From contig NZ_JADEWC010000030.1 of NCBI RefSeq assembly GCF_015207825.1, positions 1 through 40,523 of the forward strand: DNA of 40,523 nt, read 5' to 3'. The notes beneath the pieces were generated by a model. The model had not been told where the DNA came from and did not search any database. It saw nothing but the letters and a program-made list of their open reading frames with translations. Positions 5,717-37,585 of the stretch are shown here, piece by piece. How positions within the stretch are numbered: position 1 is the first letter of the stretch; each line of letters begins with the position of its first letter. This DNA comes from Cyanobacterium stanieri LEGE 03274. GTDB lineage: Bacteria > Cyanobacteriota > Cyanobacteriia > Cyanobacteriales > Cyanobacteriaceae. Position numbers and translations under genes: made by a program.

Positions 5717-8548
5717 TTACCCTCTTTTCATGTTCAAAAACTGGGTTAATTCAGGACGAAAAAGGAGTTTTACTAATCCCGTGGGGCCATTACGATGTTT
5801 TGCCACAATTACCTCCGCTACTCCTTGATCAACACTATCAGGGTGATAATATTCGTCACGATATAACATTAACACTAAATCCGCATCTTGTTCTATTGAT
5901 CCCGACTCTCTCAAATCCGATAACATGGGGCGTTTGTTTGTGCGTTGCTCCACTGCCCTACTCAACTGAGATAGAGCAATTACAGGAGCGTTAATTTCCC
6001 TTGCTAAACCTTTGAGCGCCCTTGTCATTTTTGACAATTCCTGCACACGGTTATCACCCCCTCCCTGCATTAATTGCAGATAGTCTAATAATACCAGTCC
6101 TAATTGTCCTTTTTTTTCCGCTTGTAAACGTCTAACTTGCGATCGCATTTGCATCACCGTTAAATTAGCAGTATCATCAATATAGATGGGCAACTCCGCC
6201 AAAGTACCCATGGCACTCATCAAAGGCTCCATCTCTTGTTCCGTAATCCTGCCAGACTTGAGGCGGTTACTCTCTACCCTTGCTTCTCCCGACAACAGAC
6301 GCATCGCCAATTGCTCCCTTGACATCTCCAAACTAAAGATTGCCACCGCTAAATTAGAATGTTTTGCCACATTAGAAGCGATATTAAGAGCAAAACTTGT
6401 ATTATGAACACAAATATCATTGGCAACAAAATTATGGGTTTCGGGAATCGTTAAATCATAAACCTGTTTTTCACCCATGTATGTAATGGAAACAATTTCA
6501 TCCCAATAAATATCGCTAGTAGCAAGATTTTGTAAAGGTAAATTATTCAAGGCAAAAGCAAGTTTAAATAATCTTTCTCTCGATAAACATCGTTTTCCTT
6601 GATGAATATTTTTATAACCTTTAATTCCAGCCCTTTTAGCTAAACTTGACCAACTTTCATCCCCTTTATGAAATTCGATTTCTTTCCATATTTCCAAAGG
6701 GATTAAATCGCAATTAGTTCTATAAATTTTCTTATTTACTAATGCTTTTTTTGCTCGATTTATAGCCCCTTCTTTGCCAAAAATACCTATATCATCAATA
6801 AAAGTCTTAATAGAATTGACATCGGTAATATTCAATTGCCATAGTTTATTTGTACCATCTTTATACTTAACAGAACGTTGTTTTAAATGAGCTATAACAC
6901 CAAACCTTAATAACAAATGCTGTACTTGACGAGCTAATTTTTCGCTCACCGTAGCATATCCCAATTGTACCTGATTACTTTTTAAAACCGTTAACCAACC
7001 ATCCGTAGAGAAAAGACGATTTAAAAATAAACTTACTAAATATTTAGATAACTTAAAGATAGAATCAGGAATAAATTTATCATGGGCATTTTTCCCCCAT
7101 AATTCTATACTTTCTAACCATAAAGTAACTATATTTTTTTGATTTTTATTAATTAAATTTATCTCGGAATCTAATAATTGATGTTGCTCTATATTCAAGA
7201 TAGAACATAACTTATTTAATTGCTCCTTATTCGGTGCATAAATCCCTTTTTTCCAACTAGAAATTACTGAAGGACGTACTCCTATTAAATCAGCTATTTT
7301 TGCAGAAGTTAATTGGCAATTATTAATAATTATTGTTAAATTTTGAGCAAATAATAACCTTTTTTCTTTGATAAAATCCAAATTTTTGCTAACAATAAAG
7401 CTAGTAATCCGAGTATCTTGTGATGTTTCCCGTTTAACCTTTATCCCTTCAAAATAACTAATAGATTCAATAAAATCCTGTTGTAAAAGAGGATTAGAAT
7501 TAGTAAATTGAGGACAACTACGAGTTAAACAACCATCACCGATAAAATATGCCAACAGTTTTACCTGATACTCTGGCATGGTTTCCTCACCAAAAATGGG
7601 CAACTTACGAGGCGCGGCAATTTTATCCCCTTCCTGTAGCTGTGATAATTTTTGCCATCCCTGAATAGTTAGATAAGGATGAGTTAAAGTCGTTTCAATA
7701 CAACGCCCTAATTTGGTTTTTACCCTAAAAACTGGCTTAATGCCATCATCCACAAAATTAGACGGTTGAGTTAGTCCAAATCGCCAATTATCGGTGAGGG
7801 TTAAAACCTTTCCTTGACGACGATGATATATTTCCTCAATGGTGGCAATGCTACCATCATCAAGCACAATTTCTGCATCACTACTTAAACATTTTCCCAT
7901 GGACGGGCGCGCGGCAATAATAATTAAATCCGAGCGCTGAAATCCCCCTGTCATGCCATCTAAATCATAAAACTCTGAACTAATACCGGGTAAAGCGGTT
8001 TTTTCTTGGAAGGCTTGAATTTCGGTAAAAGTATCTAATAATGTACTAGAAATGGGTACTAAACCTTCTTGGATTCTTGCTTGGGTAAGGCTAAATATTT
8101 TTTGTTCAGATTCATCTAAAACATTATCTAAATCTTTGGTGGTATCAAAGCCTAATTCACCGATTTCTTTGGCGGTGGAAATTAATAAACGTCTGATATA
8201 TTTTTCAGTAATTAAAGGTACATATCTTTCAATATTAGCCGCCGAAACAGTACGATCTAATAGACTAATTATCTTCGTATTTCCACCTACTTTTTCTAGT
8301 AAATTTTGGTCATTTAACCAAGTAGAAATAGTCATTAAATCGATAGGTTGACCTTGAAAATAAAGATGTCTGGCGGCTTCATAAATTTGACGATGGGCTT
8401 GAACATAAAAAGCCTCTGGTTGTAGTATATCAACTACTTTACCCATGGCATTGGGATCAAATAATATACCTCCTAATATAATTTCTTCTGCTTCTATATT
8501 TTGGGGTGGTAATGATGATCCTGCTAAATCTGGGGTAAAATCGTCCAT
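5717..8548 (-). CDS. dnaB: Replicative DNA helicase DnaB, interrupted by an intein
   Basis: 943 residues that resolve into a 219-residue N-extein, a 497-residue intein and a 227-residue C-extein. The spliced helicase would be 446 residues, normal for DnaB. The N-extein has the N-terminal helical domain ([19 protein letters not shown]) and the linker. The Walker A motif ARPSMGK-TSFALN is split between Lys and Thr. The C-extein has Walker B ([10 protein letters not shown]), the arginine-finger region and [19 protein letters not shown]. That last motif is where the Synechocystis DnaB intein sits, and here it is uninterrupted. DnaB unwinds DNA at the replication fork. Helicase activity requires splicing, because ATP binding is broken in the precursor. 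Confidence 0.96.
6401..7891 (-). mobile_element. LAGLIDADG intein in the DnaB P-loop, with an HTH insertion
   Basis: Starts at Cys1 ([14 protein letters not shown]) and ends [14 protein letters not shown], with Thr as the +1 residue: all expected splicing residues are present. Intein residues 68-71 are block B (TLTH). Residues 112-120 (LLAYFIGDG) and about 285-299 ([12 protein letters not shown]) are the two LAGLIDADG helices of a homing endonuclease. Between them, intein residues 193-240 (DNA about 7172-7315) read as a Cro/XRE-type helix-turn-helix, including [18 protein letters not shown]. The intein DNA is visibly more AT-rich than the exteins. It is probably splicing-competent, and the endonuclease may be intact. 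Confidence 0.93.
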
Positions 8549-10412: not shown

Positions 10413-10622
10413 ATTAACTTGCCACCATCCAAAAGCAGGGCCAATAAAACGAATAATAGCCCAAGTGACACCAAGGGAAATGATGCCCACCCATGCGCCT
10501 CTAGTGGTTAACTTATAAGCATCAGAAGCCTGAGTTTTGGTAAGAGGAAACCAAGAAACAACCCTTTCTTCCTTGCCATAGTCTTCCCCTAAATTCTTTT
10601 GTCTGCGTTTAGCTTCTCCCAT
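10410..10622 (-). CDS. DUF2839 small membrane protein
   Basis: 70 residues, beginning MGEAKRRQKNLGEDYG, a hallmark of the cyanobacterial DUF2839 family. A basic soluble N-terminus is followed by one TM helix (GAWVGIISLGVTWAIIRFIG, about residues 43-62). A purine-rich stretch (ggaggg) lies shortly upstream of the ATG on the minus strand. Function unknown. Confidence 0.85.
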   Translation of the reverse strand: MGEAKRRQKNLGEDYGKEERVVSWFPLTKTQASDAYKLTTRGAWVGIISLGVTWAIIRFIGPAFGWWQVN

Positions 10623-10785
10623 AATTAAACCCTCCGAAAATAAAATCTGATTAAAATAAACCTAACACTTACCCAGCGCCCCTTAAAACACATTCTCAAA
10701 AACTTGTAACAAAAACGAGAGTTTAAAATGTTTAGATTATCAATTTATAACCATAAACCATTGAAAACTATTGCCTATTGCCTAC

Positions 10786-12255
10786 TTAACCCAATACCCA
10801 ATTAACAAGGGTGCGCACAGCAAAACCCGTACCCCCTTCATTGTTGATAGAATTAGCCTTTTCTGCCCAAACCGGCCCTGCCACATCCAGATGCACCCAG
10901 GGGGTATTTTCCACAAACTGTTCTAGGAAAAGGGCTGCGGTGATTGAGCCTCCAGCGCGACTACCCGTGTTTTTCATATCGGCGATCGCACTTTTCATAA
11001 TATCAAAATAATCGGTTTCCATGGGCATTTGCCAGAATTTTTCCCCAGCGCCCTCAGAAGCAACGCTCAAATCTTGGGCAAGTTTATCATCCCTAGTCCA
11101 TAAACCCGCAATGTCGTTACCCAAAGCCACGATACAAGCGCCCGTGAGGGTAGCTAAATCCACCATGGCATCAACTCCCAACTTATCCGCATATACAAGG
11201 GCATCAGCGAGGGTTAAACGCCCTTCTGCATCGGTGTTATTTACCTCGATGGTTTTACCATTGGAAGCGGTGAGAATGTCACCAGGGTGCATTGCCTTAC
11301 CACTAATCATGTTTTCGGTGATGGCGCTGATAAAATGCACCTCCACATCGGGTTTTAGTTGGGCGATGGCTTTTGCAGCCCCAAAGGTAGCCGCTGCGCC
11401 TCCCATATCCATTTTCATGGTTTCGATACCACTACCCGACACCTTGAGATTTAAACCACCAGAATCGAAGGTTAAACCCTTACCGATGATAGCTACTTTA
11501 CGTTTTGCTGTGCCTTGGGGTTTGTAGGTGAGATGGACAAATTTGGGGGGAATATCGGAGGCTTGGGCAACTCCTAAAAATGCTCCCATGCCTAATTTTT
11601 CGCATTCTTCTTTCTCAAGGATAGTTAATTCTAGGCTGTAATCCTTGGCTAAATCTTGGGCGATTTGGGCGAGGGTAATGGGGTTGATGTCGTTGGGGGG
11701 AGAGTTTACCAATTCCCTAGCTAAAATTACCCCATCGCTGATTTGTTTGCCTTTAGTGATGGCGTTGTCGGAAGCCTGTAAACCTAATATATCCACATTG
11801 GTTAGTTTTACTTCGTTTTTGGCATCGGATTTGAAACGGTTATCTTTGTGGAGGGCTAAAATTACTCCTTCGGTAATCATTTGGGCGATGGTATCTGCTT
11901 CATATTCATTGATATTTAAAGCAATACCTAGGGTTTTACCATTTTCTTTGGCTGTGCTACGGGCGATCGCCCCTGCGGCTAATCTGATACCATTAGAAGT
12001 AATATCTTCCTGTTTGCCTAAACCCACCAACATCACTTTACGAATAGGAGATTTAGCACCAACCCTTGCAGTGAGGGTAGAGTTAGCCTTACCCTTAAAA
12101 TCATTCTCCTCGATTAACTCCGTAATTACCCCATCTAACTTGTCATTTAAACTAGCTATATCCCCTGTTAACTCAGTATCATCCTCAAAAAAACCAAGGG
12201 CAAGAATATCTCCATTCCAATCTAAAAACGAACTAGAATTAACTTTAAAATCCAT
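10786..12255 (-). CDS. pepA: Leucyl aminopeptidase (M17)
   Basis: 489 residues, standard for cytosol aminopeptidase. It has a diverse N-terminal domain and a C-terminal di-metal catalytic domain. The PepA signature [14 protein letters not shown] is present, with metal and catalytic residues in [14 protein letters not shown] and [10 protein letters not shown]. It releases N-terminal residues (Leu preferred) from peptides in the cytosol; some homologues also bind DNA. Its stop is bordered by a TTGCCTATTGCC repeat (about 10768-10783). Composition shifts from mixed/G-rich to C-rich near the HIP1 site at 11963. Confidence 0.95.
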
Positions 12256-12315
12256 TGTTTAAGTTATATATAAATTAATCAAAAAATAACATCTTCCATT
12301 GTATTATCCCCTTTC

Positions 12316-14667
12316 TCACCTTTCAACGCCAGAAATAAAATCTAGTAATTTTTCTGCCTCCAAGGGGCGACTAAATAAATAACCTTGCCCAGCGGCACAA
12401 TTTTCCGATTTTAAAAAATCCAATTGATTAGGGGTTTCAATCCCTTCAGCAATTATCGATAAATTGAGATTATGAGCCATGGAAATCATAGTTTTTATTA
12501 AAGCCTTATTTTTATCACTTTCTTCTATATCCAAAACAAAACTACGGTCAATTTTTATTAGTGTAAAAGGATATTTTCTTAGATAACTCAAAGAAGAATA
12601 GCCCGTACCAAAATCATCTAAATAAAGTTCAAATCCAAGGGAATTAAGCTGAAATAATAATTGTTTAACAATGGGAATATCTTCTACCAATACTTGCTCA
12701 GTTATTTCTAATTTTAAATTTTTAGGGTTAATTTGATACTTTTTAGTTGTCTCTAAAATACTTTCTACCAAATGACTATCTCTAAATTGTCGAGGAGATA
12801 AATTCATGGAAATATAAATATCAATACCTTCTTTTTGCCAAATAAATAACTGTTGACAAATCTTTTCTAATAACCATTTTCCCAAATCAATTATCAAGCC
12901 AGTTTCTTCTGCTATGTTAATAAATTCTACGGGGGAAACATCTCCCAAAATATCATTATGCCAACGGGTTAAAGACTCAAACCCAATAATTTTTTTTGTT
13001 TTTAATTCAAAAATAGGTTGATAAACTAAGAATAATTCATCATTTCTTAATGCTTGACGTAAATAGGTTTCCTGTAGCATTTTCTTTTGGGCAACCTGAT
13101 TCATTTTATCGTCAAAAAACTTGAAATTATTTTTCCCTTTCTTTTTAGCTTCATACATAGCTAAATCAGCATTTTTAATTAAGTTTTGAATATCATCACC
13201 ATCTTGAGGATAAAAAGTAATACCAATACTAGCGGAAACAAATCTTTTTTCCCCCGCAATGATAAAAGGTTTTCTCATGGCATTAAGAAGTTTAGAGGCG
13301 ATTATCTCTCCCTGAGAAACGGATGTTAGGGAGGATATGATAATTAAAAATTCATCGCCCCCTAGTCGGGCAACGGTATCGCTTTCCCTCAAACAATTAC
13401 GCAGTCTTTGGGCAACAACTATTAATAATTCATCTCCGTATTGATGCCCTAGGGTATCGTTAATATTTTTAAAGTTATCTAAGTCAAGAAAAATAAGGGC
13501 TACTGAAAGTTTATTGCGTTGCGCTTTACTGATTTCTTGTTTTAATCTTTCCATACCCAAAAGGCGATTGGGTAATTCTGTTAAATAATCATAGTTGGCT
13601 TGGTGGGAGAGTAATTCTTCTTGTTGTTTTTTGTCGGTAATGTCTTCTTTGACGGCTACATAGTGGGTGATGATGCCGTATTCATCTTTGATGGGTGAGA
13701 TAGAGGCGATTTCCCAAAAAAGTTCGCCATTTTTTTTTCGATTATGAAATTCTCCATGCCATTCTTTTCCACTGGAGATGGTTTGCCATATTTTTTTATA
13801 TTCTTCTTTACTGGTTTCCCCTGATTTGAGGATACGAGGATTTTTACCGATGACTTCTTCTCTGGTGTAGCCTGTTACCCTTTCAAATTTTGAGTTAACG
13901 TATTGAATTATGCCACTGTTATCGGTAATAATAATGGATGCTGGACTTTGTTCTGATGCTTGATGTAAAAATTTTAATTGTTCTTCTATTTTTTTGCTAT
14001 GGGTAATGTCAACGAAGGTAATTAGATAGGCTTTTTTATCTTCCCATTGAATCGGTTTGACATTCATATTAATGGTTAACATTTTGTCTTTTTGACGGGG
14101 AATGATAATTTCTGTGGATTTTGAGGAGGCTAAGGGAATGCCGAATAATTCACCAAACATTTTGTTGGCTTTCCCTTCAAACATTTTTTTCCCAATGGAG
14201 TTGATAAATAATATTTTTCCTTCTTTATCTGTTACCATTAATCCGTTAAGGTTGTAAAGTGCGATCGCCTTTAGCTTTTCTTTGGTGTAAATTAACTTTG
14301 TTATGTCTGTAAAAGTAACTAAGATTCTTGGTATTTTTTGAGGAATTTTGCTAATATTAATTATTTTTATATTTAACCAGACTAAACCTATATTAGAGTT
14401 AACTTTTTTGGTAAGTTGAATTGCTTGTTTTTCTGATTTAATAATTTTGTTTAACTCTGATTCTAACCATTGAATTTTAATGAATCGTGAGCTATTTTCA
14501 GATAAAATATGATCATCTTTTGAAGAATCTATAAATAATTCTTGAACCTTTTTGTTAGAATAAATAACCTGATTATTGTGATTTAATAATAATATGCCAT
14601 CACTGATATTTTCAATGATTGTTAAATATTCGTTGTCCCCAAAATTTAGAGGGAAAGAAGGGTTCAT
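12316..14667 (-). CDS. PAS-PAS-PAS-GGDEF-EAL c-di-GMP turnover protein
   Basis: 783 residues, no TM segment, so a cytosolic sensor. Three PAS domains lie at about 12-125, 133-225 and 233-345, the last being the best match (FERVTGYTREEVIGKNPRIL). GGDEF is intact at 436-440, with an RxxD inhibitory I-site (RESD, 427-430) at the canonical five-residue spacing. The EAL-type domain (about 535-780) has ESL instead of EAL (564-566) but keeps the metal-binding Glu. It also keeps EITE (654-657), DDFGTGYSS (684-692), the KIDRSF Lys and the EGIE Glu. Both diguanylate cyclase and c-di-GMP phosphodiesterase activity are possible, with product feedback on the cyclase. Which dominates cannot be told from sequence. 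The gene is monocistronic in appearance. Confidence 0.93.
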   Translation of the reverse strand: MNPSFPLNFGDNEYLTIIENISDGILLLNHNNQVIYSNKKVQELFIDSSKDDHILSENSSRFIKIQWLESELNKIIKSEKQAIQLTKKVNSNIGLVWLNIKIINISKIPQKIPRILVTFTDITKLIYTKEKLKAIALYNLNGLMVTDKEGKILFINSIGKKMFEGKANKMFGELFGIPLASSKSTEIIIPRQKDKMLTINMNVKPIQWEDKKAYLITFVDITHSKKIEEQLKFLHQASEQSPASIIITDNSGIIQYVNSKFERVTGYTREEVIGKNPRILKSGETSKEEYKKIWQTISSGKEWHGEFHNRKKNGELFWEIASISPIKDEYGIITHYVAVKEDITDKKQQEELLSHQANYDYLTELPNRLLGMERLKQEISKAQRNKLSVALIFLDLDNFKNINDTLGHQYGDELLIVVAQRLRNCLRESDTVARLGGDEFLIIISSLTSVSQGEIIASKLLNAMRKPFIIAGEKRFVSASIGITFYPQDGDDIQNLIKNADLAMYEAKKKGKNNFKFFDDKMNQVAQKKMLQETYLRQALRNDELFLVYQPIFELKTKKIIGFESLTRWHNDILGDVSPVEFINIAEETGLIIDLGKWLLEKICQQLFIWQKEGIDIYISMNLSPRQFRDSHLVESILETTKKYQINPKNLKLEITEQVLVEDIPIVKQLLFQLNSLGFELYLDDFGTGYSSLSYLRKYPFTLIKIDRSFVLDIEESDKNKALIKTMISMAHNLNLSIIAEGIETPNQLDFLKSENCAAGQGYLFSRPLEAEKLLDFISGVER

Positions 14668-20159: not shown

Positions 20160-22406
20160 ATGGAATTTTCAATCGCTACAATTCTTTCTCACCTAAGTCA
20201 AGATAAACTGGTGGCAGGGAAGATGTTAGAAAAAAAATTGGGTTGTGAAGAACCTGAAGAAATCGAAAAACTGCAAATTGCCCTTGATGTATTGGAAAAG
20301 GTGGGAGTAGTAACCAAAGAATTTGGGAAGTATCGTCGAGTATCGGAAGCAGATGTAGTAGAAGCGAAGCTACGTTGTTCGAGTAAAGGCTTTTGCTTTG
20401 CTATCCAAGATGAAGAAGATGCCGATGACATTTATATTAGGGAAAGTCACCTTAGTAATGCGTGGAATAGCGATCGCGTCTTAGTCAAAATCATTAAAGA
20501 AGGGACGAGAAGAAGATCTCCTGAAGGGGAAGTAAAATTGATTACAGAAAGGGCTAATCCTTCAGTATTAGCTAGGGTTGTGGAGGATAATTCGGAATAT
20601 CATGCCGTGCCCTTAGACGATCGCCTCTTATTCGAGGTAAAATTAAAAGATGAACCCGAATCCATCTCAGAAGCAGTTAATCACCTCGTCCATGTGAATG
20701 TGTTGAGGTATCCTATCGGACAACATCCCCCCATGGGTAAAGTAATGAGGGTTTTGGGCAGTGACGCAGAGGAGGCCGCCGACACTGATATTGTTTCCTC
20801 TAAACATGATTTACCCCATGAGTTTTCCGAGAAGATTTTTAGAAAAGCCGATGAAATTTCCCCAGATTTTGGAGAAGAAGAAATCAGCAAACGTCTTGAC
20901 TTGCGTGATAAATTAACCATCACCCTCGAGCAAGATAATGTGACAGAATTAGATTTGTTGGTGGAAAATGCCTTCACCCTTGAGCAAAATGACGATGGAA
21001 ACTGGTGTTTAGGGGTGCATATTGCCGATGTCGCTCACTTTGTACAGCCCGATACCCACATTGATCGGGAAGCCCGTAAAAGAGCCACTACGGTACATCT
21101 AGGAGATAAAATTATCCCCATGTTACCCCCCAAGGTGGAAAAATGTTGTTCTTTAGTGGCCAATGAGGATCGTTTAACGATTTCTGTATTTATTACTTTT
21201 GACGATAAAGGGCAGGTGGTAGAATACAATGTCCATCCCAGTGTGATTCGGGTTGACCACAGTTTAACCTATAAAGAAGTACAAAATATTATCGGTTTGG
21301 GTAGTGCCAAGGCAGAATTAAAGGATGTTTTTCCCCTCCTCAATGAGATGTTTTTCACCCTTAGCCCTCTGGTTAAGGCACAACGGTTACAAAGGGGCGG
21401 TTTTGATATTGCTCTCGATGATATTACCTCCTATTTTAAGGATGAAGGCAGAATAGGGGCGATCGCCTCTTACTCCCAACTACCCGTATTATCATTGATG
21501 ACAGAATTAATGGTACTCGTCGGAAAATTAGTGGCCGAACATCTCCACGAATTGGGCTTACCAGCCATCTACTGCACCCAAGCCAAACCCGATTGGGACG
21601 AATTAGAAGACTTACTAAAGCTCGTAGCTAACCTTAAACTAGACTTCAAACTAGAATCAGAAGAAGACTTATTTCCCCTCGACTACTACCACCTTACCCA
21701 AGAATTTAGTAAATCCGACTACGAAAAAGTCCTTAACTACCTCCTCCTATGCTCCCTCAAAGCCGATAAATATATCCAACATCCCGCCCCCCATTTCGGG
21801 TTAGCCTATCCCATCTATACCCACTGTGTATCCCCCGGACAACGTTACATCGACTTACACATTCAACGAGTCTTAAAAGCCCTATTTGAAAACGGCCGTG
21901 ACAGAAGACACAGCAACGCTAAAAAAGGAGTAAATCTGCATAGCAACTCCTGCCATGGTGACATTAACTGGAATGTATTACCCCCAGCCATCCAAAGTAA
22001 CCTAGAAGCCGACTTACATTCCCTCGTTACCCACCTTAACGAACGCGAAAAAATTGCCCATGATGCCGAAAAAGACTTGGCAGGGCTAAAGAAAGCCGAA
22101 AAAATGAAAGACTGCACTGGTAAAGTATTCAGTGGCTTAATTACTGGGGTACAATCCTACGGCTTCTTTGTGCAAATCGAAGATTCCTTGGTAGAAGGGT
22201 TAGTCCATGTTAGCTCCCTTAAAGATGATTGGTACGAATATCGAGCCCGTCATACCTGCTTGGTGGGTAGAAAAAACCGTACTGCTTACCGTTTGGGCGA
22301 TCGGGTTGAAGTGGAAATCAAGAGCGTTGACTACTATCGCCAACAAATTGACCTCGTCACCGTGCGCGGCGGTAGTGATGCCGTAGATGCCGACTTTGAG
22401 GAGTAA
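20160..22406 (+). CDS. RNase II/R (RNB) family protein with degenerate catalytic site
   Basis: 748 residues with RNase R layout: an N-terminal helical/winged region, cold-shock-like domain(s) (RCSSKGFCFAIQDEEDADDIYIRE), the RNB domain from about residue 240, and a C-terminal S1 domain (GKVFSGLITGVQSYGFFVQI). RNB exonucleases need four Asp in TID...D.DD. Here the segment after RLDLRDKLTIT reads LEQDNVTELDLLVENAF, leaving at most one of the four in place. The distal SPIRRY motif reads SPGQRY. RNA binding is plausible but 3'-5' exonuclease activity is doubtful. Synechocystis has an RNB protein, Zam, tied to acetazolamide resistance; this may be its orthologue, which I cannot confirm. The gene is otherwise intact, so it is probably conserved for a non-nucleolytic role. 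Confidence 0.88.
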   Translation: MEFSIATILSHLSQDKLVAGKMLEKKLGCEEPEEIEKLQIALDVLEKVGVVTKEFGKYRRVSEADVVEAKLRCSSKGFCFAIQDEEDADDIYIRESHLSNAWNSDRVLVKIIKEGTRRRSPEGEVKLITERANPSVLARVVEDNSEYHAVPLDDRLLFEVKLKDEPESISEAVNHLVHVNVLRYPIGQHPPMGKVMRVLGSDAEEAADTDIVSSKHDLPHEFSEKIFRKADEISPDFGEEEISKRLDLRDKLTITLEQDNVTELDLLVENAFTLEQNDDGNWCLGVHIADVAHFVQPDTHIDREARKRATTVHLGDKIIPMLPPKVEKCCSLVANEDRLTISVFITFDDKGQVVEYNVHPSVIRVDHSLTYKEVQNIIGLGSAKAELKDVFPLLNEMFFTLSPLVKAQRLQRGGFDIALDDITSYFKDEGRIGAIASYSQLPVLSLMTELMVLVGKLVAEHLHELGLPAIYCTQAKPDWDELEDLLKLVANLKLDFKLESEEDLFPLDYYHLTQEFSKSDYEKVLNYLLLCSLKADKYIQHPAPHFGLAYPIYTHCVSPGQRYIDLHIQRVLKALFENGRDRRHSNAKKGVNLHSNSCHGDINWNVLPPAIQSNLEADLHSLVTHLNEREKIAHDAEKDLAGLKKAEKMKDCTGKVFSGLITGVQSYGFFVQIEDSLVEGLVHVSSLKDDWYEYRARHTCLVGRKNRTAYRLGDRVEVEIKSVDYYRQQIDLVTVRGGSDAVDADFEE

Positions 22407-27340: not shown

Positions 27341-29002
27341 ATGAAAAATGATGCTAATGTCAACATTTTGTTGATAGATGATGATCCTGTTTTTCGTCTT
27401 GGTTTAATTGCTTTAATTCAGGGGGAGAGTAATTCTAATATTAGAATTTTGGCGCAGGGTAAAATGGCGGATACTTTACCTTTGTTGAAGGAAAATCCTG
27501 CGGATTTGTTGTTGGTGTCTTTGGATTTGGCGGTTGAACCTGGGAGGATGAAAAGTTTGCTCGGTTTGAGCCGTAAGTTAGCAGATTCTTATCCTAATGT
27601 GCCTATTTTTTTGATTACTCCTTGGGGGAGTGATGAAAATATCAAAACTATTGCTAATGTTAGGGGTTGTTGTCCTCGAAATATTGCAATTCCTGAGCTA
27701 ATTAAGGGTATTAAAATATGTGCTAGGGGTAAGAGTTATTTTGTTAATATTAAAAATAAAAATCGTCGCTTTATTGGTGGTTGGCTTTATCGTCAATGTG
27801 AGCTGGGTTTGAGGGAAATTGAAAGGGGTATTAGGGAAGTTAATTTTCATTTAAGGAATAGTAGTTTATCTCCTCTTGATGTACTTTTTTGGCAGGGCAG
27901 AAGGAGGGAGTTAAGGTTTGTAAGGTGGTTGGTGAGTCAGTTTGTGGCGACTCCTGATGGGATGTTAAATAGTTCTATGGACGATGAGGAGTTGTTGGGA
28001 GAGTCTGATTCTGTGGTTAGTTTACCTGCGTCACGGGTTGATTCTGCGATGGTTGTGGGTGGAGATGATGAGGTAGATTATGAAGATTTAATTATTAAAA
28101 AAATTGGCGGTTCTTTGAGTAACAAAACTGGATTATTTTTAGAGATTGATGTTTTAAGGGGGGATAAAAAAAAGGAACTTTTTTTGTTAATATTTAAGGA
28201 GTTTAAGCAGTTAGTTTTAGAGTTAAAAACTTTGGGTTTAAGGGAGAGTGAAGTTATTGAGAGAGAGTTATCTATTCTTCGGGAGTTGTGGCAGGGGGTT
28301 GTTACGAAGTTTTTGGGGCGATATGTGGCGTTAGATAGTGGTGATAGTAGGTTGGTGGATTTTAAGGAGACTGTTTTGAAGGAGGGACAATTTTTGGTGG
28401 CAAATAGTTTTATTAGTGTCCCTTTTTTTGATCAATTATTGTTATATTCTGTGTTAGGGAAGGACTTTTTTATTGATGGTCAAGTTTATGATTATCAGGG
28501 TAAGTCAGCTTGTGAAATTGAACAAATTTTGATGGAAAATGTGTTAGTGGCGATCGCCTGTAGCACCATGCAATTTACCTTAAATAATTTATCAGAATCC
28601 CAACCGATTAAACATAATCTTTTCAAACAAGAATGGAAATCATCCCGTAAGATAGCTATGTTTCGGAACAATTTAGCATGGAAATATAAAAGGGAAAAAT
28701 ATTGGCAAATCCCTCGTAACATTTTTGAAGACGAATATCAAATCTTAAAACTAGGTTATCAAGGTATTATCAAAACAAAAATCAGTCATCCACGACACCA
28801 AGAATTAAACTCCCTAACTGGTGTTCCTTGGTTAATTACCATGATGATTGAATTTGTAGATAGTATTACAAGGGGATTACAGGCGATCGCCGATATACTT
28901 GGAAAAGCAGTAGTCTTTATTCTCACAGAAATTATAGGTAGGGGAATAGGCTTAATCGGCAAAGGGATAATACAAGGAATCGGCAACAAAATCAAACCCT
29001 AA
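27341..29002 (+). CDS. Pseudo-receiver plus DUF3685 (Ycf55-like) protein
   Basis: 553 residues. Residues ~7-125 form a response-regulator receiver fold (NILLIDDDPVFRLGL, acidic pocket D13-D15). Aligning with NarL puts Ser60 where the phosphoacceptor Asp should be (ADLLLVS, followed by LDL), and the conserved Lys also looks absent. Phosphorylation is therefore unlikely, unless Asp62 substitutes. The remainder resembles the cyanobacterial/plastid DUF3685/Ycf55 family of unknown function. The C-terminus ends in amphipathic/hydrophobic helices (VVFILTEIIGRGIGLIG) that could touch membranes. Cotranscribed with the Fur-like gene; its end overlaps the convergent kinase gene by 4 bp. Base composition flips mid-gene at the HIP1 site at 28550. 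Confidence 0.78.
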   Translation: MKNDANVNILLIDDDPVFRLGLIALIQGESNSNIRILAQGKMADTLPLLKENPADLLLVSLDLAVEPGRMKSLLGLSRKLADSYPNVPIFLITPWGSDENIKTIANVRGCCPRNIAIPELIKGIKICARGKSYFVNIKNKNRRFIGGWLYRQCELGLREIERGIREVNFHLRNSSLSPLDVLFWQGRRRELRFVRWLVSQFVATPDGMLNSSMDDEELLGESDSVVSLPASRVDSAMVVGGDDEVDYEDLIIKKIGGSLSNKTGLFLEIDVLRGDKKKELFLLIFKEFKQLVLELKTLGLRESEVIERELSILRELWQGVVTKFLGRYVALDSGDSRLVDFKETVLKEGQFLVANSFISVPFFDQLLLYSVLGKDFFIDGQVYDYQGKSACEIEQILMENVLVAIACSTMQFTLNNLSESQPIKHNLFKQEWKSSRKIAMFRNNLAWKYKREKYWQIPRNIFEDEYQILKLGYQGIIKTKISHPRHQELNSLTGVPWLITMMIEFVDSITRGLQAIADILGKAVVFILTEIIGRGIGLIGKGIIQGIGNKIKP

Positions 29003-30516
29003 AACAACTTCCACCAACGGCGCCCCCCATCGGGAAACACCGTAGCCCAATTAACCCTAGCATCCTTCAACTGATTTTGACTAACCTTGACATTCTTTAA
29101 ATTAGCCCCGCAAAAATTAGCATCCGCTAGATTTGCATTAGTAAAATCAGCCCCCTGTAGATTAGCCCCTCGAAAATCAGCATCCCGTAACTCACTCTTA
29201 GCAAAATAAGCCTGAGCTAAATTAGCATTAGAAAAATTAGCCCCCTGTAAATTAGAACTATAAAAATTACTCTGGGCCAAATTACTCTCAATAAAAATCG
29301 CCCCTTCCAATTGAGCATAGCGAAAAACAAACTTACTCAACTTAACCCCCGTCAAATTAATATTATTCAACTCCTGCTCACTAAAATCCTTCTTGCCCCC
29401 ATTGTAGGCAGCCCTAAAACTCTCATCATCCCACTTAATAACAATATTATTAGTCTTTTTCTTTCTTTTTTGAATTGCCTGTCGTAGTTGTTGGGTAGGA
29501 GACATCGTCACATCCCCCGTCTGAGTGGCAGATAAATCAGTAGTCGAAACATCATCCGAACCCTTATCCGCAGATTGAATAACCGTTATAAAACTTTGGT
29601 TCAAACTCTGCTCAAAAGGTGCAACATCTAAACCCTTTAACAACTCCTCAGCAGTCTTGTAGCGCTCCTTCACATTGGGCATCAACATTTTACCCAGCAC
29701 CTTCTTAAAACTAGGACTAATATTAACCTCATTTTCCCAAACAAGATCTCCGGTTTCCGAATCCCGTTCAAACTTTTTGGGAGACTTGCCCGTCAACAGA
29801 TAGAGACAAGTAGCCCCAAGGGCATATATATCACTGGCATAAATGGGGCGCATCGCCATTTGTTCAGGGGGAGCATAACCCATGGTACCCACCGCAAATT
29901 GAGTGAGGGCAGTTTGTCCATAGGTTTGAGCTAATTGGGTATTAACCTGATCCTTTACTGCTCCAAAATCAATTAAAATCAATTTACCATCCTTTTTACG
30001 GCGCAGGATATTAGCGGGTTTAATATCTCGATGGATTACTTTTTCTGAATGTAAATATTGTAAAATCGGTACGATTTCCGCTAAAAATCTTTTAACCCCC
30101 AACTCTCCATATACCCCTTTTTCCTTAACTTCCTTTTGCAGATTATCACCATTAATCAACTCTTGAATAACATAAAACTTCTCATCGTCCACAAAATGAT
30201 TAAGTAACTTAGGTATCTGAGGATGATTAATTTTAGCTAAGGTTTTGGCTTCCCTCTTAAATAAACTAAGAGCCATTTTAAAGGCTTGAGGATCATCTAC
30301 AATGGGTCGTAACTGTTTTACTACACAAAGGGGATCATCTTTTTTAATTAAATCCACCCCCACAAAGGTAGCCCCGAAGCCTCCCTTACCCAATCTTTTG
30401 ATGACTCGATAGCGTTTATTGAGAATTAAACTACAACCACAAGTATTACAGTTTTTGAGCTTAGGATGGTTTTTGGGGTTAGGACATTCAGGGTTGACAC
30501 AATAACTAATAATCAT
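28999..30516 (-). CDS. SpkB-like Ser/Thr protein kinase with pentapeptide repeats (paralogue B)
   Basis: 505 residues. The N-terminal Cys cluster (C6, C11, C23, C26; YCVNPECPNP...CNTC) looks like a zinc ribbon or redox site. The Hanks-type kinase domain spans about 35-300: GKGGFGATFVGVD P-loop, HRDIKPAN catalytic loop, LIDFGAVKD and GYAPPEQ. A linker follows, then about ten pentapeptide repeats (A(N/D)LxG, about 385-490). This is the architecture of Synechocystis SpkB, implicated in oxidative-stress response. All catalytic residues are present, so it is probably active. No TM helix; soluble. It is the downstream gene of a tandem pair, 61 bp from its paralogue. Confidence 0.92.
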   Translation of the reverse strand: MIISYCVNPECPNPKNHPKLKNCNTCGCSLILNKRYRVIKRLGKGGFGATFVGVDLIKKDDPLCVVKQLRPIVDDPQAFKMALSLFKREAKTLAKINHPQIPKLLNHFVDDEKFYVIQELINGDNLQKEVKEKGVYGELGVKRFLAEIVPILQYLHSEKVIHRDIKPANILRRKKDGKLILIDFGAVKDQVNTQLAQTYGQTALTQFAVGTMGYAPPEQMAMRPIYASDIYALGATCLYLLTGKSPKKFERDSETGDLVWENEVNISPSFKKVLGKMLMPNVKERYKTAEELLKGLDVAPFEQSLNQSFITVIQSADKGSDDVSTTDLSATQTGDVTMSPTQQLRQAIQKRKKKTNNIVIKWDDESFRAAYNGGKKDFSEQELNNINLTGVKLSKFVFRYAQLEGAIFIESNLAQSNFYSSNLQGANFSNANLAQAYFAKSELRDADFRGANLQGADFTNANLADANFCGANLKNVKVSQNQLKDARVNWATVFPDGGRRWWKLF

Positions 30517-30577: not shown

Positions 30578-32107
30578 CTACCACCAACGTCGTTTACCAT
30601 TGGGTAAGATAGTTCTCCAGTTAGTTTTGGCAAGGCGTAATTGCTCATCATCAACCTTTGCTTCCGTGAGATTAGCCCCACAGAGATTGGCATCTTTGAG
30701 ACTAGCTTCTGTGAGATTGGCCTTTTGTAAATCAGCGCCTTGTAAGTCAGCATTTTTCAGGTTAGCTTTATATAGTTCGGCTCGTTTTAAAACAGCTTCC
30801 CGTAGGTTTGCTTGGGCAAAATTTGCCCCCATGAGATTAGTACGATAGAGGTTGGCTTTTTGTAAGTTTACCCCAATTAATTTACTTTGAGAAAAACTAG
30901 AGCCTGGTAATTTTAAACCTTCTAAATCAAAACCATTTAAGGTTTGTTGGCTAAAGTTACGATTACCCCGTTGATATTCTTGGATAATCATTTCTGGGGA
31001 GGTTATTTGTAGTTTTTGAACTTGAACTCTGGGGGTAGATATTTTTTGTTTAAGGGGTTGATTTTGTTTTTCCCTTCTCTTACGAATGGCATCGGCTAGG
31101 TTTTGGGTGGTTAAATTGGAACTAGAATCGCTGTCTTGTGGTTCATCGGGTTTATTTTCTTCTTTGGGGGTAGTGGTAGTAAAGAACATACTTTCTGCCA
31201 ATTCTTGTTCGTAGGGTACTAAGTCTAGGGCTTCGATGACTTCCTTAGCGGAGTTAAATCTTTTCTTAACATCAATTTCGAGCATTTTATTTAAGACTTT
31301 GGCAAAGGTACTACTGACGGTGGTATGGTTTTCCCATGCTAGTTCCCCTGTTTCGGCGTCGCATAAGTCTTTGGGGGCTTTCCCTGTGAGTAGGAAAATG
31401 CAGGTTGCTCCAAGGGCATAAACATCGCTGGAGTAAACGGGGCGCATGGCTAGTTGTTCGGGGGGTGCAAAGCCCATAGTCCCGACAGAAATTTTAGTAA
31501 AGGCACTCTGGGGGTTGGCGTTCATGAGTTTGGTGTTAACTTCTTCTTTGACGGCCCCGAAGTCGATGAGAAAAAGTTTTTTGCTTTCTTTTTCCCTCAG
31601 GATATTACCCGGTTTGATGTCTCGGTGGATAACTTTACGGGAGTGGATATATTCTAGTACGGGGAGCATACTACGGAGGAAGTTTTTGGCGGAGGATTCT
31701 TGATAGATTCTGCCTTTTTTAACTTCTCTTTCTAAGTCTCGTCCTAGGATAAAGTCTTGAATGAGGTAGAATTGTTCTTTTTCTTCAAAGTAATCGATAA
31801 GTTTGGGAATTTGGGCATGTTCTAGTTTTGCCATGGTTTTGGCTTCCCGATTGAATAAGTCAAGAGCGGTGCTGTAGGAGTCGGGGTTGGCGGAGGCTGG
31901 GTCTAGTTGTTTGATGACGCAGTATTGATTTTTATTGCCCATGTCCACGGCAAGATAGGTGGTGCCGAATCCTCCTTTACCGATTTTTTTGATGGCGACG
32001 TATCTTTTATGGAGAATTAGATGAGATCCACAACTTCTGCATTTCCTTGTTTTGGTGTCGTTTTGGGGGTTTTCGCAATGGGGATTAAGGCAATAAATAA
32101 CACTCAT
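30578..32107 (-). CDS. SpkB-like Ser/Thr protein kinase with pentapeptide repeats (paralogue A)
   Basis: 509 residues with exactly the same layout as the gene downstream. Cys at 6, 11, 23 and 26 have identical spacing (YCLNPHCENP...CRSC). The kinase has GKGGFGTTYLAVD, HRDIKPGNIL, LIDFGAVKEE and GFAPPEQ. A Ser/Thr/Pro/Lys-rich linker (about 300-365) and a C-terminal pentapeptide solenoid follow (LQGADLQKANLTEASLKDAN). The two proteins align end to end, including the final N-W-(A/R)-T-(V/I)-(F/L)-P block, showing a tandem duplication. The linkers differ most. Likely active. Divergent from the nucleotidyltransferase gene, sharing a 204-bp upstream gap. Confidence 0.92.
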   Translation of the reverse strand: MSVIYCLNPHCENPQNDTKTRKCRSCGSHLILHKRYVAIKKIGKGGFGTTYLAVDMGNKNQYCVIKQLDPASANPDSYSTALDLFNREAKTMAKLEHAQIPKLIDYFEEKEQFYLIQDFILGRDLEREVKKGRIYQESSAKNFLRSMLPVLEYIHSRKVIHRDIKPGNILREKESKKLFLIDFGAVKEEVNTKLMNANPQSAFTKISVGTMGFAPPEQLAMRPVYSSDVYALGATCIFLLTGKAPKDLCDAETGELAWENHTTVSSTFAKVLNKMLEIDVKKRFNSAKEVIEALDLVPYEQELAESMFFTTTTPKEENKPDEPQDSDSSSNLTTQNLADAIRKRREKQNQPLKQKISTPRVQVQKLQITSPEMIIQEYQRGNRNFSQQTLNGFDLEGLKLPGSSFSQSKLIGVNLQKANLYRTNLMGANFAQANLREAVLKRAELYKANLKNADLQGADLQKANLTEASLKDANLCGANLTEAKVDDEQLRLAKTNWRTILPNGKRRWW

Positions 32108-34568: not shown

Positions 34569-35324
34569 CTAACTTAACTTAACAGTTTCATAGGGCTTCG
34601 GCTCAATTACCTGAGTAGATAGATTAGCCCCTGTCAACATAGAGCGAAAATTATCCAAACTACCCTCCTCCTTAAGTAGATTAATCAAAAACCCTTTAAA
34701 CTCAATGTCACCCCCCGCCGCAGTGGGTAAAATATATTCTGGTTTAAGCCACTGGCACACTTCTAAAGCATTTTTCTGCCCTTTAATCACTGGACCGATA
34801 AGGGGTATCTTAATACTGGTTAGAGGGGTAATAATGGCTTTAATACCCGTCTCAGTTTGCAAATTTTGCGAGTGGAAGCCGTGGGGCTCATAATAGATAG
34901 AATCACCGTTGGTTAAATCCTTGATAATATAACCATTTTCCACCAAAGTAGGCCCCACAGGAGAGCCTTTTACCGCCTTAATTTCTATGGTGTCATCAAT
35001 GATATGACTTTCTCCATGGTTGAGGGTGATTATTGTTTGATAACCCAATTCCTGACAAACTTTACTGGCATTGGGAGAAGCAATAACTTTAATATTATGG
35101 TCTAATTCTTTTAAGGTAGGTGGATGGGCATGATCTTCTAACCCTTGGGAGAGTAAAATAAAATCTATGTTGCTGGGTATGGGTTGGGGATTACGTTTTT
35201 TTCCCTCAAATAACCAATCTAAATTACCAAAGGTTAAACTACCTACTAGCCAAGGATCTAGTAAAATTCTTTTATCTCCAATCTCAATTAACCATGAGTT
35301 ACTGTCAAACCACGTTAGTTGCAT
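34569..35324 (-). CDS. Metallo-beta-lactamase-fold protein with degenerate metal site
   Basis: 251 residues, UlaG-like single-domain MBL fold (MQLTWFDSNSWLIEIGDKRILLDPWLVG). The metal-binding motif HxHxDH, usually THGHGDH here, reads SQGLEDHAHPPTL: both leading His are lost (Gln, Leu) and only Asp-His remains. Later family landmarks are recognisable (VIASPNASKVCQELG, YYEPHGFH). It may bind one metal, use the nearby AHPP His, or be non-catalytic. It starts 47 bp after the end of the RNB-dsRBD gene on the same strand, so cotranscription is likely. Confidence 0.83.
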   Translation of the reverse strand: MQLTWFDSNSWLIEIGDKRILLDPWLVGSLTFGNLDWLFEGKKRNPQPIPSNIDFILLSQGLEDHAHPPTLKELDHNIKVIASPNASKVCQELGYQTIITLNHGESHIIDDTIEIKAVKGSPVGPTLVENGYIIKDLTNGDSIYYEPHGFHSQNLQTETGIKAIITPLTSIKIPLIGPVIKGQKNALEVCQWLKPEYILPTAAGGDIEFKGFLINLLKEEGSLDNFRSMLTGANLSTQVIEPKPYETVKLS

Positions 35325-35371: not shown

Positions 35372-37585
35372 TTATTCCGGAGAACGATGGAGGTTGTGTT
35401 GAATCATCATCACATGGGAGGCACATTGTTTGGCTTGTTTTTTACTTTTGCCATAACCTGTGGATTTGATGGTTTTATTACGATAATTAAGGGTAATAAG
35501 GCATTGGAAAAAGTTATCTATTTTGATGAATTTATATTCGGGATAATCCATTTGATTTGTTTGACAAAGATCATGAATTAGGGATATATAATCTTTTTCA
35601 ACGGTGGATTTTATGGGGGGGGAAGATGGGTGGTTTTCCTCTGTTTTAATATCTTCTATGGTAGGATTTTGAGGACTGTTGGTTAAATTATTTTCTAAGA
35701 AGGCTTTAATATAGTTGAGAGCTGACTTTTGTTTGGCTTTACTCTTTTTTTTATCGATGGCAGGGTGCATAGTGGTTAAACCATCTACATAGCAAAAACT
35801 ATAGTATCCCTCCTGTTGAGGATACTTATCTATTTTATATTCTACTTTGACATGGTCTAATTGCGATCGCACTAACAACACTGATACAGCGTCAATCTGT
35901 TGACCAAAAAAACTATTTATCTTAGCCACAAACCATAACTTATAAAAGTCTTTTGGTTGTAAATAATCAATCTTCTTTTCTACCTCCATTAAAAAATCAT
36001 TAGTTAAAGAATTACTATCGATTTTTTCATGTAATAAAGCTGAAAAATTTTCTTCAGCCGTCACATTTTTATCTTCCCCCCGATGAGCATTATTAACTAA
36101 AACCTTAGATTTATTATCTTTAACTAACTGATTATTAACATATGCCTTAATAGCCATGAGGGCAGAAGTTTGTTTAGCCTTAACTTTTTTGACATCTTCT
36201 GCAAAATCAGCGGTAGTTAAACCATTTATAAAACATTTTGCCCGATAGGTTTTATGTTTTTGATTATATTTAACCTCATAATTAACAGTAATATTTTTGA
36301 TTTGAGAGGCAATTAATAATATAGATATAGTATCGAGATTATCTAAATAAAAAAAGTCATCAATTCTAGCCACAAACCAGATAAAATAAAAATCCTTTAG
36401 AGATAAAGTATTAAGCCTTTCTTGGATATAAATTCTTAGTTCAGGTAAACGTTTTTTAGAAGTAAAGTATTCTAATAATTCAGAAAAATCATCCCTAGAT
36501 AAACTTCTAATCTCTTGCTCCTTAATATGGTCATATTTATTAGCTATATCTACTTTTCTCTTAATACTTAGATAAAGAGATTTATCTTCCTTAAATTGAC
36601 AGTGAAAATCATTAATATAATCAGCAATAACTTGTAACTCATCAAGATTATAGGGAGAAGATTTTTTATTAATATATGCTTTAATAATGCGATGATTAAC
36701 CAAATCAACAAAACGTCGAAGGGGGCTAGTAAAATGAGAATAAGTTTCTAGGGCTAAACCCACGTGTTGTAAAGGACAGGGGCTATAAATAGCCGGAACT
36801 AGACAATGTCCCATTTCTTTGATAGCCTGATCTAAGTCTTGAATACCGACATCTTGAGTACGGAAAAGAGCAGGAATTTTTTCTTGAGCTAATAAACGGG
36901 CAATGGTAGTATTAGTTAAGATCATTAATTCAGCAATTAACTGATGGGTATTCACATTTTCAGCAATTAAATTACCATCTTCATCAATGTAACCATCATC
37001 GGTTAAGATACCTGATTTACCTTTTCTTTGACTAGCTAATACTTGGGTAATTTTTTGAATTGTGACTAATAATTGATCATGTTTTTTGGTAGTGGGATTT
37101 TTTAAAATATTTTCGACTTCTTCATAACTAAAAGCCCTTAAGTTTTTAAAAATAGTTTCTTGTATCTCAAATTTTATAATGTTGCCTTGACTATCAAGGG
37201 TAAAAAAAATTGTCAGGGCTAGTCTTTCTTTTCCTTCCTCCAATGATCCTAAATTGGTACTAATATGAACAGGTAACATAGGAGTATTAGGGTTAGTATG
37301 ATAGAGGGTAATTACTCTTTTTAATGCCTCTTGATCGATGGGAGAATTTTTAGGAATTAAAGCACCTACGTCAGTGATACTAATCTGTAATTCAAACTGA
37401 TTATTATCCAATTCAATTAACCAAATAGCATCATCTCTATCAACGGTGGTGGCATCATCAATGGTAATTCCAAAAACACAGGGGCGCTGTTGTCGTGCGA
37501 GGTTGATTTTTTCTACTAAATTGACATTAGAAGCCTGATTAACTTGTTCATAGCTAAATTTTCTGGGGGTAATGGATGATTTCAT
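35372..37585 (-). CDS. RNB-domain ribonuclease with duplicated novel module and C-terminal dsRBD
   Basis: 737 residues. The RNB domain (about 33-345) opens almost at the N-terminus, with no cold-shock domains. Its catalytic Asp set is intact (TIDDATTVDRDDA: D43, D49, D51, D52), as are LIAELMIL and the distal YSHFTSPLRRFVDL (R290, R291). There is no S1 domain. Instead two related ~120-residue modules (363-484 and 512-632) share DFYxxWFVAxI, SxLLxxSQ, GLTT and KAKQxSALxxIKA. After a Pro/Ser-rich linker, 664-732 reads as a double-stranded RNA-binding domain (YPEYKFIKID...GYGKSKKQAKQCAS). An active 3'-5' exoribonuclease directed to structured RNA is the natural inference. Function untested as far as I know. 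Confidence 0.88.
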   Translation of the reverse strand: MKSSITPRKFSYEQVNQASNVNLVEKINLARQQRPCVFGITIDDATTVDRDDAIWLIELDNNQFELQISITDVGALIPKNSPIDQEALKRVITLYHTNPNTPMLPVHISTNLGSLEEGKERLALTIFFTLDSQGNIIKFEIQETIFKNLRAFSYEEVENILKNPTTKKHDQLLVTIQKITQVLASQRKGKSGILTDDGYIDEDGNLIAENVNTHQLIAELMILTNTTIARLLAQEKIPALFRTQDVGIQDLDQAIKEMGHCLVPAIYSPCPLQHVGLALETYSHFTSPLRRFVDLVNHRIIKAYINKKSSPYNLDELQVIADYINDFHCQFKEDKSLYLSIKRKVDIANKYDHIKEQEIRSLSRDDFSELLEYFTSKKRLPELRIYIQERLNTLSLKDFYFIWFVARIDDFFYLDNLDTISILLIASQIKNITVNYEVKYNQKHKTYRAKCFINGLTTADFAEDVKKVKAKQTSALMAIKAYVNNQLVKDNKSKVLVNNAHRGEDKNVTAEENFSALLHEKIDSNSLTNDFLMEVEKKIDYLQPKDFYKLWFVAKINSFFGQQIDAVSVLLVRSQLDHVKVEYKIDKYPQQEGYYSFCYVDGLTTMHPAIDKKKSKAKQKSALNYIKAFLENNLTNSPQNPTIEDIKTEENHPSSPPIKSTVEKDYISLIHDLCQTNQMDYPEYKFIKIDNFFQCLITLNYRNKTIKSTGYGKSKKQAKQCASHVMMIQHNLHRSPE

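Follow-up and report, generated by a model that had tools for sequence, protein, structure and literature searches.

The window, meaning the whole 40,523-nucleotide stretch analysed from contig NZ_JADEWC010000030.1 of Cyanobacterium stanieri LEGE 03274, carries on its minus strand a gene for a protein in which an RNB exoribonuclease domain is followed by two related C-terminal modules and a terminal double-stranded RNA-binding domain (dsRBD). The open reading frame is found where a first-pass annotation, made from the sequence alone, had placed an RNB protein, and its features are the following.

35372 to 37585, minus strand: gene for the RNB-dsRBD protein, 737 amino acids plus stop (open reading frame at these coordinates).
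36650 to 37480, minus strand: RNB catalytic domain, residues ~36-312 (Pfam RNB, E 4.6e-63; Foldseek ranks 1-44 are RNB-family entries).
37430 to 37459, minus strand: putative metal-binding aspartates D43, D49, D51 and D52 (aligned with E. coli RNase II D201, D207, D209 and D210; invariant in 44/44 rows).
36713 to 36727, minus strand: SPLRR motif with R290 (aligned with RNase II R500).
36794 to 36859, minus strand: shortened 'tri-helix wedge' segment, residues 243-264, 22 amino acids (from the alignment; low model confidence at ~251-260).
36371 to 36496, minus strand: module 1 three-helix subdomain, residues 364-405 (AlphaFold2, block pLDDT 92-94).
36137 to 36331, minus strand: module 1 dsRBD-like fold, residues 419-483 (AlphaFold2, profile alignments, Foldseek).
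35927 to 36055, minus strand: module 2 three-helix subdomain, residues 511-553 (AlphaFold2; alignment of modules 1 and 2).
35696 to 35890, minus strand: module 2 dsRBD-like fold, residues 566-630 (AlphaFold2, module alignment, profile alignment).
35399 to 35590, minus strand: terminal dsRBD with KSKKQAK, residues 666-729 (Pfam dsrm above cut-off, AlphaFold2 fold, family profile).

The RNB domain of the protein reached 213.9 bits against a Pfam cut-off of 29.3. Besides the four aspartates, the alignment with E. coli RNase II pairs Y95 with Y253, Y154 with Y313 and R290 with R500, and these RNase II positions, together with D201, D207, D209 and D210, are taken here to be the catalytic residues of that enzyme. 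Y95, R290 and R291 are, like the aspartates, invariant in all 44 rows of the family alignment, with Y154 lying outside the invariant columns, and the retention of the four aspartates and the SPLRR arginines claimed in the first-pass annotation is borne out. Only ~40 residues precede the catalytic TIDD motif, and no S1, cold-shock or other OB family was among the five Pfam families listed for the protein at a limit of E 10 (the HMMER filters drop most matches above ~0.1), so that the absence of both cold-shock and S1 domains also holds as far as the Pfam scan can detect them. The NCBIfam model for RNase R scored 193.2 of the 597.85 bits needed and the two RNase II models 128.5 of 542 and 113.2 of 641.9 bits, all three matches being confined to the RNB part. 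There was no Ribonuclease_3 Pfam match that would indicate an RNase III catalytic domain, and TIGR02191 matched by the dsRBD end only (22.7 of 166.25 bits). Comparison with the same-genus homologue points to purifying selection on the RNB domain (dN 0.109, dS 0.83). Together, the sequence comparisons make it very probable that the predicted activity is that of a hydrolytic 3'-5' exoribonuclease.

The region beyond the RNB domain had been described as two homologous ~120-residue modules (363-484 and 512-632) followed by a dsRBD at 664-732, and this layout was recovered: modules 1 and 2 share 38% identity over 126 residues (E 3e-21), and Pfam dsrm matched residues 666-726 with E 1.1e-5 and a modest 26.4 bits against a cut-off of 23. 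In neither module of this protein did Pfam dsrm find a stretch, so the proposed Pfam search was positive for the terminal domain and negative for the modules. An AlphaFold2 model built with the 44-row alignment (mean pLDDT 88, pTM 0.61) gave each module as three helices followed by an alpha-beta-beta-beta-alpha fold (419-483 and 566-630), and a third fold of this kind at 666-729, where the first-pass annotation had expected it. The modules had been credited with ends resembling the C-terminal helix of a dsRBD; the likeness stands, but AlphaFold2 builds the C-terminal halves as complete dsRBD folds, so that the modelled protein holds three such folds and not one. Given the pTM of 0.61, the placement of these folds relative to the RNB channel is not fixed by the model.

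Further comparisons agree with this assignment. Module 1 modelled by itself reached a pLDDT of 96.3, and 47 of the best 50 of its 407 Foldseek matches were dsRBDs or dsRBD proteins by title, with probabilities up to 1.00 and no E below 0.001 among these 50; the top match was an ADAR1 dsRBD3 dimer entry. For the whole model, the best 50 of 862 Foldseek matches comprised RNB-family entries at ranks 1-44 and, at ranks 45-50, tandem-dsRBD or Dicer-complex entries (TARBP2, MLE, Loquacious, DRB4). Profile-profile alignment by hhalign matched the dsRBD half of the modules to the terminal dsRBD at 97.3% (E 2.3e-11); against the PDB, the module dsRBD profile matched PKR (E 1.7e-7) and ADAR1 (E 2.4e-7), and the family profile of the terminal dsRBD matched Loquacious (E 7.8e-26) and TARBP2 (E 3.3e-22). 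No known fold was recognised for the three-helix half, the best PDB sequence match being no better than E 0.035. In the same-genus comparison, purifying selection is seen on module 1 (dN 0.197, dS 0.865), module 2 (dN 0.226, dS 0.659) and the third dsRBD (dN 0.179, dS 1.212), and none was found on linker 1.

The RNB domain itself departs from RNase R in one segment. R242-A265 occupies the position of the RNase R tri-helix wedge in the alignment, where K544 of RNase R, which a passage of PMC12320835 places in the wedge, falls at residue 263 of the window protein (P0001). All six two-module proteins in the 44-row alignment have a wedge segment of 22 residues and the remaining 38 rows one of 33-46, compared with 60 in E. 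coli RNase II, 61 in RNase R and 63 in Zam. The source genome's own RNase II has 32 residues there, so that the RNB-dsRBD family is not alone in having a short wedge. In E. coli RNase R, mutations in the wedge cost the enzyme its unwinding and leave binding and degradation in place, as described in part of PMC10579198. The two-module branch differs from its one-module cousins by an extra module and a shorter wedge; the second module may compensate for the short wedge, or the enzyme may have given up unwinding, either being possible.

Relatives were fetched with two RNB-domain patterns and confirmed by tblastn with the whole window protein, which gave 54 loci. Alignment A3 combines 43 of these with the window protein (44 rows), L070, L075, L076, L077, L080-L084, L087 and L088 having been left out as redundant, broken or truncated, or for an overlong start or another genetic code; segments from its rows make up A5 (38), A6 (44), A4 (49) and A7 (34). 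Both patterns are confined to the RNB domain, yet dsrm was found at E 0.1 or better in 43/44 scanned rows. A maximum-likelihood tree was built from RNB domains only and read without an inferred root, with canonical RNB proteins thinly sampled and further near-copies left out; a branch with 99/96 support sets 54 of its 75 rows apart, and in a smaller RNB-domain tree 48 of 69 rows are set apart with support 99/94. The 21 rows across the branch are 18 RNase II, RNase R and Zam proteins and three from Gracilibacteria/Patescibacteria; the positions of long rows, L221, L029 and L231 among them, are unsure. The module profile matched 54/54 of the clade rows and 0/21 of the others, a count which is partly non-independent since the profile shares training rows with the clade, the plasmid, IMG/VR and other-RNB rows being independent. 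The terminal dsRBD profile matched 51/54, which cannot be read as the number of separate terminal domains because this profile can match a module's own dsRBD, as in L223; L063, L192, L029 and L223 apparently have no terminal dsRBD. On these sequence comparisons, the RNB-dsRBD proteins form one separate RNB clade with this kind of architecture. L075, L077, L080 and L081 are Gracilibacteria/Patescibacteria RNB proteins (code 25) with a C-terminal extension of ~200 residues; L075, L080 and L081 were rejected as family members, having no module or dsRBD profile match and lying across the tree branch.

A survey of such architectures across cyanobacteria, as the first-pass annotation had suggested, was made with the module profile. 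Two modules in one open frame were found in 15/15 genomes examined of the window's family, and among 388 genomes drawn from the class there were 30 matches, namely seven of the window's family and 23 of 381 others, several of the matching genomes having more than one module-bearing copy. Relatives usually have one module and include, within cyanobacteria, proteins of Geminocystis, Crocosphaera watsonii, Leptolyngbya, Stenomitos, Brasilonema and Scytonema and, elsewhere, those of Glycomyces, Phytomonospora and metagenome-assembled genomes labelled Prolixibacteraceae and Micrarchaeota, labels which are possibly wrong; the Micrarchaeota-labelled protein has the module and no terminal dsRBD. Near the one-module RNB gene of L129 (G036:C1:262000-276000), a run of similar short open reading frames (102 and 121 amino acids, one cluster) at ~10600-14000 suggests a tandem repeat array.

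Members borne on large plasmids occur in Acaryochloris, Rhodococcus, Gordonia, Streptomyces, Pseudomonas and Acetobacter, and a plasmid member is also found in Synechococcus. Four Acaryochloris plasmid copies all carry RNB, with dsrm at E 0.01 or better in three and above cut-off in two, and eight more plasmid proteins (Streptomyces, two from Rhodococcus, Gordonia, Pseudomonas, Acetobacter, Synechococcus and Acaryochloris) carry RNB in 8/8 and dsrm above cut-off in 7/8. With a Rhodococcus query, 87 plasmid records matched, 39 of them over at least 80% of its length, a minority having been checked individually for dsRBDs; nine Acaryochloris plasmid records from two strains have one RNB-dsRBD gene each. 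In their records, plasmid members are usually named 'RNB domain-containing ribonuclease' or 'ribonuclease catalytic domain-containing protein', and one Rhodococcus piece 'double-stranded RNA binding motif domain-containing protein'. On a Frondihabitans plasmid (L222:1459-3260), the annotation gives two overlapping genes, one RNB and one 'double-stranded RNA binding motif'; the idea of an RNB protein and a dsRBD acting in trans was dropped, as the two pieces look like one frameshifted gene. From IMG/VR, 80 loci were kept of 157 relatives, of which five match the module profile and four of these five have dsrm. Among the neighbouring proteins scanned on IMG/VR contigs, 4/10 match phage families, and a single terminase profile gave one sub-threshold match in the five records, results that did not confirm the viral label of these contigs.

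The surroundings of the gene vary. The source genome also encodes a canonical RNase II (L002) and Zam, which brings its RNB proteins to three, and only two dsrm matches were found in it, the RNB-dsRBD protein being one of them. A passage of PMC10989914 gives each cyanobacterial genome two or three RNB proteins and leaves the existence of RNase R-like ones unclear. Zam lies at 20160-22406 on the plus strand of the window, 13 kb from the RNB-dsRBD gene, and shows E257, E263, D265 and N270 at the four aspartate positions of the alignment. An MBL-fold-like hydrolase, recognised by eye, is encoded at 34569-35324 on the minus strand, 47 bp downstream of the gene; a conserved operon partner was rejected, since of 14 regions of 13-15 kb each the one from the same genus alone preserves the gene order, and the remaining 13 lack this neighbour in the vicinity of the gene. 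Elsewhere on the minus strand of the window are a 943-residue DnaB-type replicative helicase (5717-8548), whose P-loop is, by eye, split by an intein (GKC ... HNTS), and two adjacent Ser/Thr kinase-like proteins (28999-30516 and 30578-32107) with, by eye, pentapeptide-like repeats at their C-termini. On Acaryochloris plasmids, recA lies within two or three genes of the RNB-dsRBD gene in three of five regions (L217, L218, L233), with a GNAT gene between them on two pREC plasmids. On the Synechococcus elongatus plasmid pIITB3_1 (L226), a one-module RNB gene, a GIY-YIG nuclease gene and the CyRepA1 replication gene stand side by side, CyRepA1 being next but one to the RNB gene. One Streptomyces plasmid copy is ~1.9 kb from dndC. 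No partner common to all the plasmid surroundings was seen.

The capacity of these domains to hold RNA can be judged from two motifs, KKxAK at the start of the second dsRBD helix, which we take to be the basic contact patch, and GPxH, presumably the loop contact. In the terminal domains, the first lysine of the patch is present in 38/38, the second in 31/38 and the last in 36/38; in the module domains, the first lysine is kept in 43/44, the alanine in 41/44 and a final lysine or arginine in 40/44. The terminal domain of the window protein has KKQAK, which fits the full patch, and its module dsRBDs have KxxAK (KVKAK and KSKAK), short of the full KKxAK. The GPxH loop was found in 0/33 cyanobacterial rows and 13/21 others. 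Many of the non-cyanobacterial members therefore look, by their sequences, like ordinary dsRNA binders, and the cyanobacterial dsRBDs, judged likewise, may bind RNA more weakly or bind something else such as protein. We infer that at least one dsRBD of the window protein probably binds RNA.

On balance, and with moderate confidence, we favour a reading in which this separate RNB clade uses its dsRBDs to steer the predicted exonuclease in cis to structured or duplex RNA. RNA capture would have moved from an OB-fold clamp, with two cold-shock domains in front and S1 behind, to a C-terminal dsRBD array. The dsRBDs would dock on a helix (a hairpin, a sense-antisense duplex, or a fold within rRNA or sRNA) and keep it close to the RNB channel. 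A free single-stranded 3' end would enter this channel for processive hydrolysis, and the dsRBDs would stop the enzyme from leaving its substrate while the helix breathes. The shortened wedge and the lack of GPxH in cyanobacterial dsRBDs weaken a plain reading in which the enzyme unwinds duplexes. The first-pass annotation had proposed such a dsRBD-guided enzyme, and its account was right in the architecture, the catalytic residues and the lack of detectable OB folds; it had missed the wide family with members on chromosomes, plasmids and IMG/VR contigs, the three dsRBD folds, the short wedge and the lack of GPxH in the cyanobacterial dsRBDs.

Some eukaryotic dsRBDs are protein-protein or dimerisation modules, and the dsRBDs described here could likewise serve mainly to tether a conventional exonuclease for single strands to a partner such as the ribosome, RNase E or RNase III. 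The loss of GPxH from all 33 cyanobacterial rows, the short wedge and the ADAR1 dimer entry as best Foldseek match of module 1 are consistent with such tethering, but the basic patch is strongly conserved, 13/21 non-cyanobacterial members keep GPxH and no partner gene stays beside the gene outside the genus in the 14 regions; tethering is judged unlikely. That the protein is a catalytically dead RNB pseudo-nuclease which binds RNA, like Zam or Ssd1, is extremely improbable: such proteins exist within the RNB family according to parts of PMC9145284 and section 4 of PMC12320835, but the protein described here retains all four aspartates, the arginine and the two aligned tyrosines. It is also highly improbable that the enzyme is an anti-phage defence nuclease or a counter-defence protein; the members on plasmids and IMG/VR contigs, and the vicinity of dndC on the Streptomyces plasmid, would fit, whereas the chromosomal surroundings compared hold no common partner and the gene is carried by every genome examined of one family. 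Of three members scanned with PADLOC, the window protein and one from Glycomyces had no hit and one from Crocosphaera had a weak one (E 0.0079), and a defence system was rejected.

The steering reading allows more than one biological role, and housekeeping turnover of folded RNA and clearance of antisense or duplex RNA are both possible. A housekeeping exonuclease for structured RNA or rRNA, in an RNase R niche closed to a Zam without active site and with dsRBDs that only raise the affinity for folded RNA, is a serious though still tentative option, which overlaps with steering in cis and differs from it in role, not in enzymology. It would account for a gene present in 15/15 genomes of the window's family and for a Zam with altered active-site positions, reported as catalytically degenerate in part of PMC9145284; yet most cyanobacteria do without the gene, the module being confined to 23/381 class genomes outside the family. 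More doubtful is a mobile-element family of dsRNA-directed 3'-5' exonucleases. On this view, RNB-dsRBD enzymes encoded by large plasmids and viruses from several phyla would clear hairpins or sense-antisense pairs, such as host transcripts or the antisense RNAs that control replication, and one copy would have settled on the chromosome as a core gene of the cyanobacterial family, its module having been duplicated and most of its wedge lost. According to a passage of PMC10989914, plasmid pAQ3 rose in copy number when one RNase III was lost from Synechococcus PCC 7002, and control by duplex RNA is in this light a reasonable idea for cyanobacterial plasmids. If the mobile-element reading were true, the family would stand beside RNase III as its exonucleolytic counterpart on duplex RNA. 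An RNB clade which reaches its substrate by dsRBDs would change the picture of how duplex and structured RNA is removed in bacteria.

Most RNB enzymes, as described in parts of PMC12320835 and PMC4042491, consist of an RNB core flanked by cold-shock and S1 domains. The window protein shares with RNase R and RNase II the RNB core with the four aspartates, the tyrosine and the arginine of the active site, but has no detectable cold-shock or S1 domain, a wedge of 22 rather than 60-61 residues and a C-terminal dsRBD array, and falls far below the NCBIfam cut-offs of both. Minimal RNB enzymes, such as that of Deinococcus (2r7d, Foldseek rank 31 for the whole model) and the RNase R of Haloferax, likewise combine RNB with few accessory domains according to a passage of PMC12320835; they differ in being mostly RNB, and section 4 of that paper mentions no dsRBD in them. 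Zam, a cyanobacterial RNase R-like protein, shares the RNB fold, whereas its cold-shock and S1 domains and degenerate active site, described in part of PMC9145284, are both foreign to the window protein. RNase III and tandem dsRBD proteins (TARBP2, Loquacious, PKR, ADAR1) have the dsRBD fold and the basic patch in common with it; unlike them, it lacks an RNase III domain, would owe its catalysis to RNB and is modelled with a three-helix bundle ahead of each of its first two dsRBDs. The first-pass annotation knew of no description of RNB joined to a dsRBD, and none was found among the PMC full-text papers listed by the searches made for this architecture; PMC10989914 mentions both domains, the dsRBD concerning RNase III in the passage seen there. 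The predicted catalysis is that of a known family, and it is the proposed mode of substrate capture that would be new.
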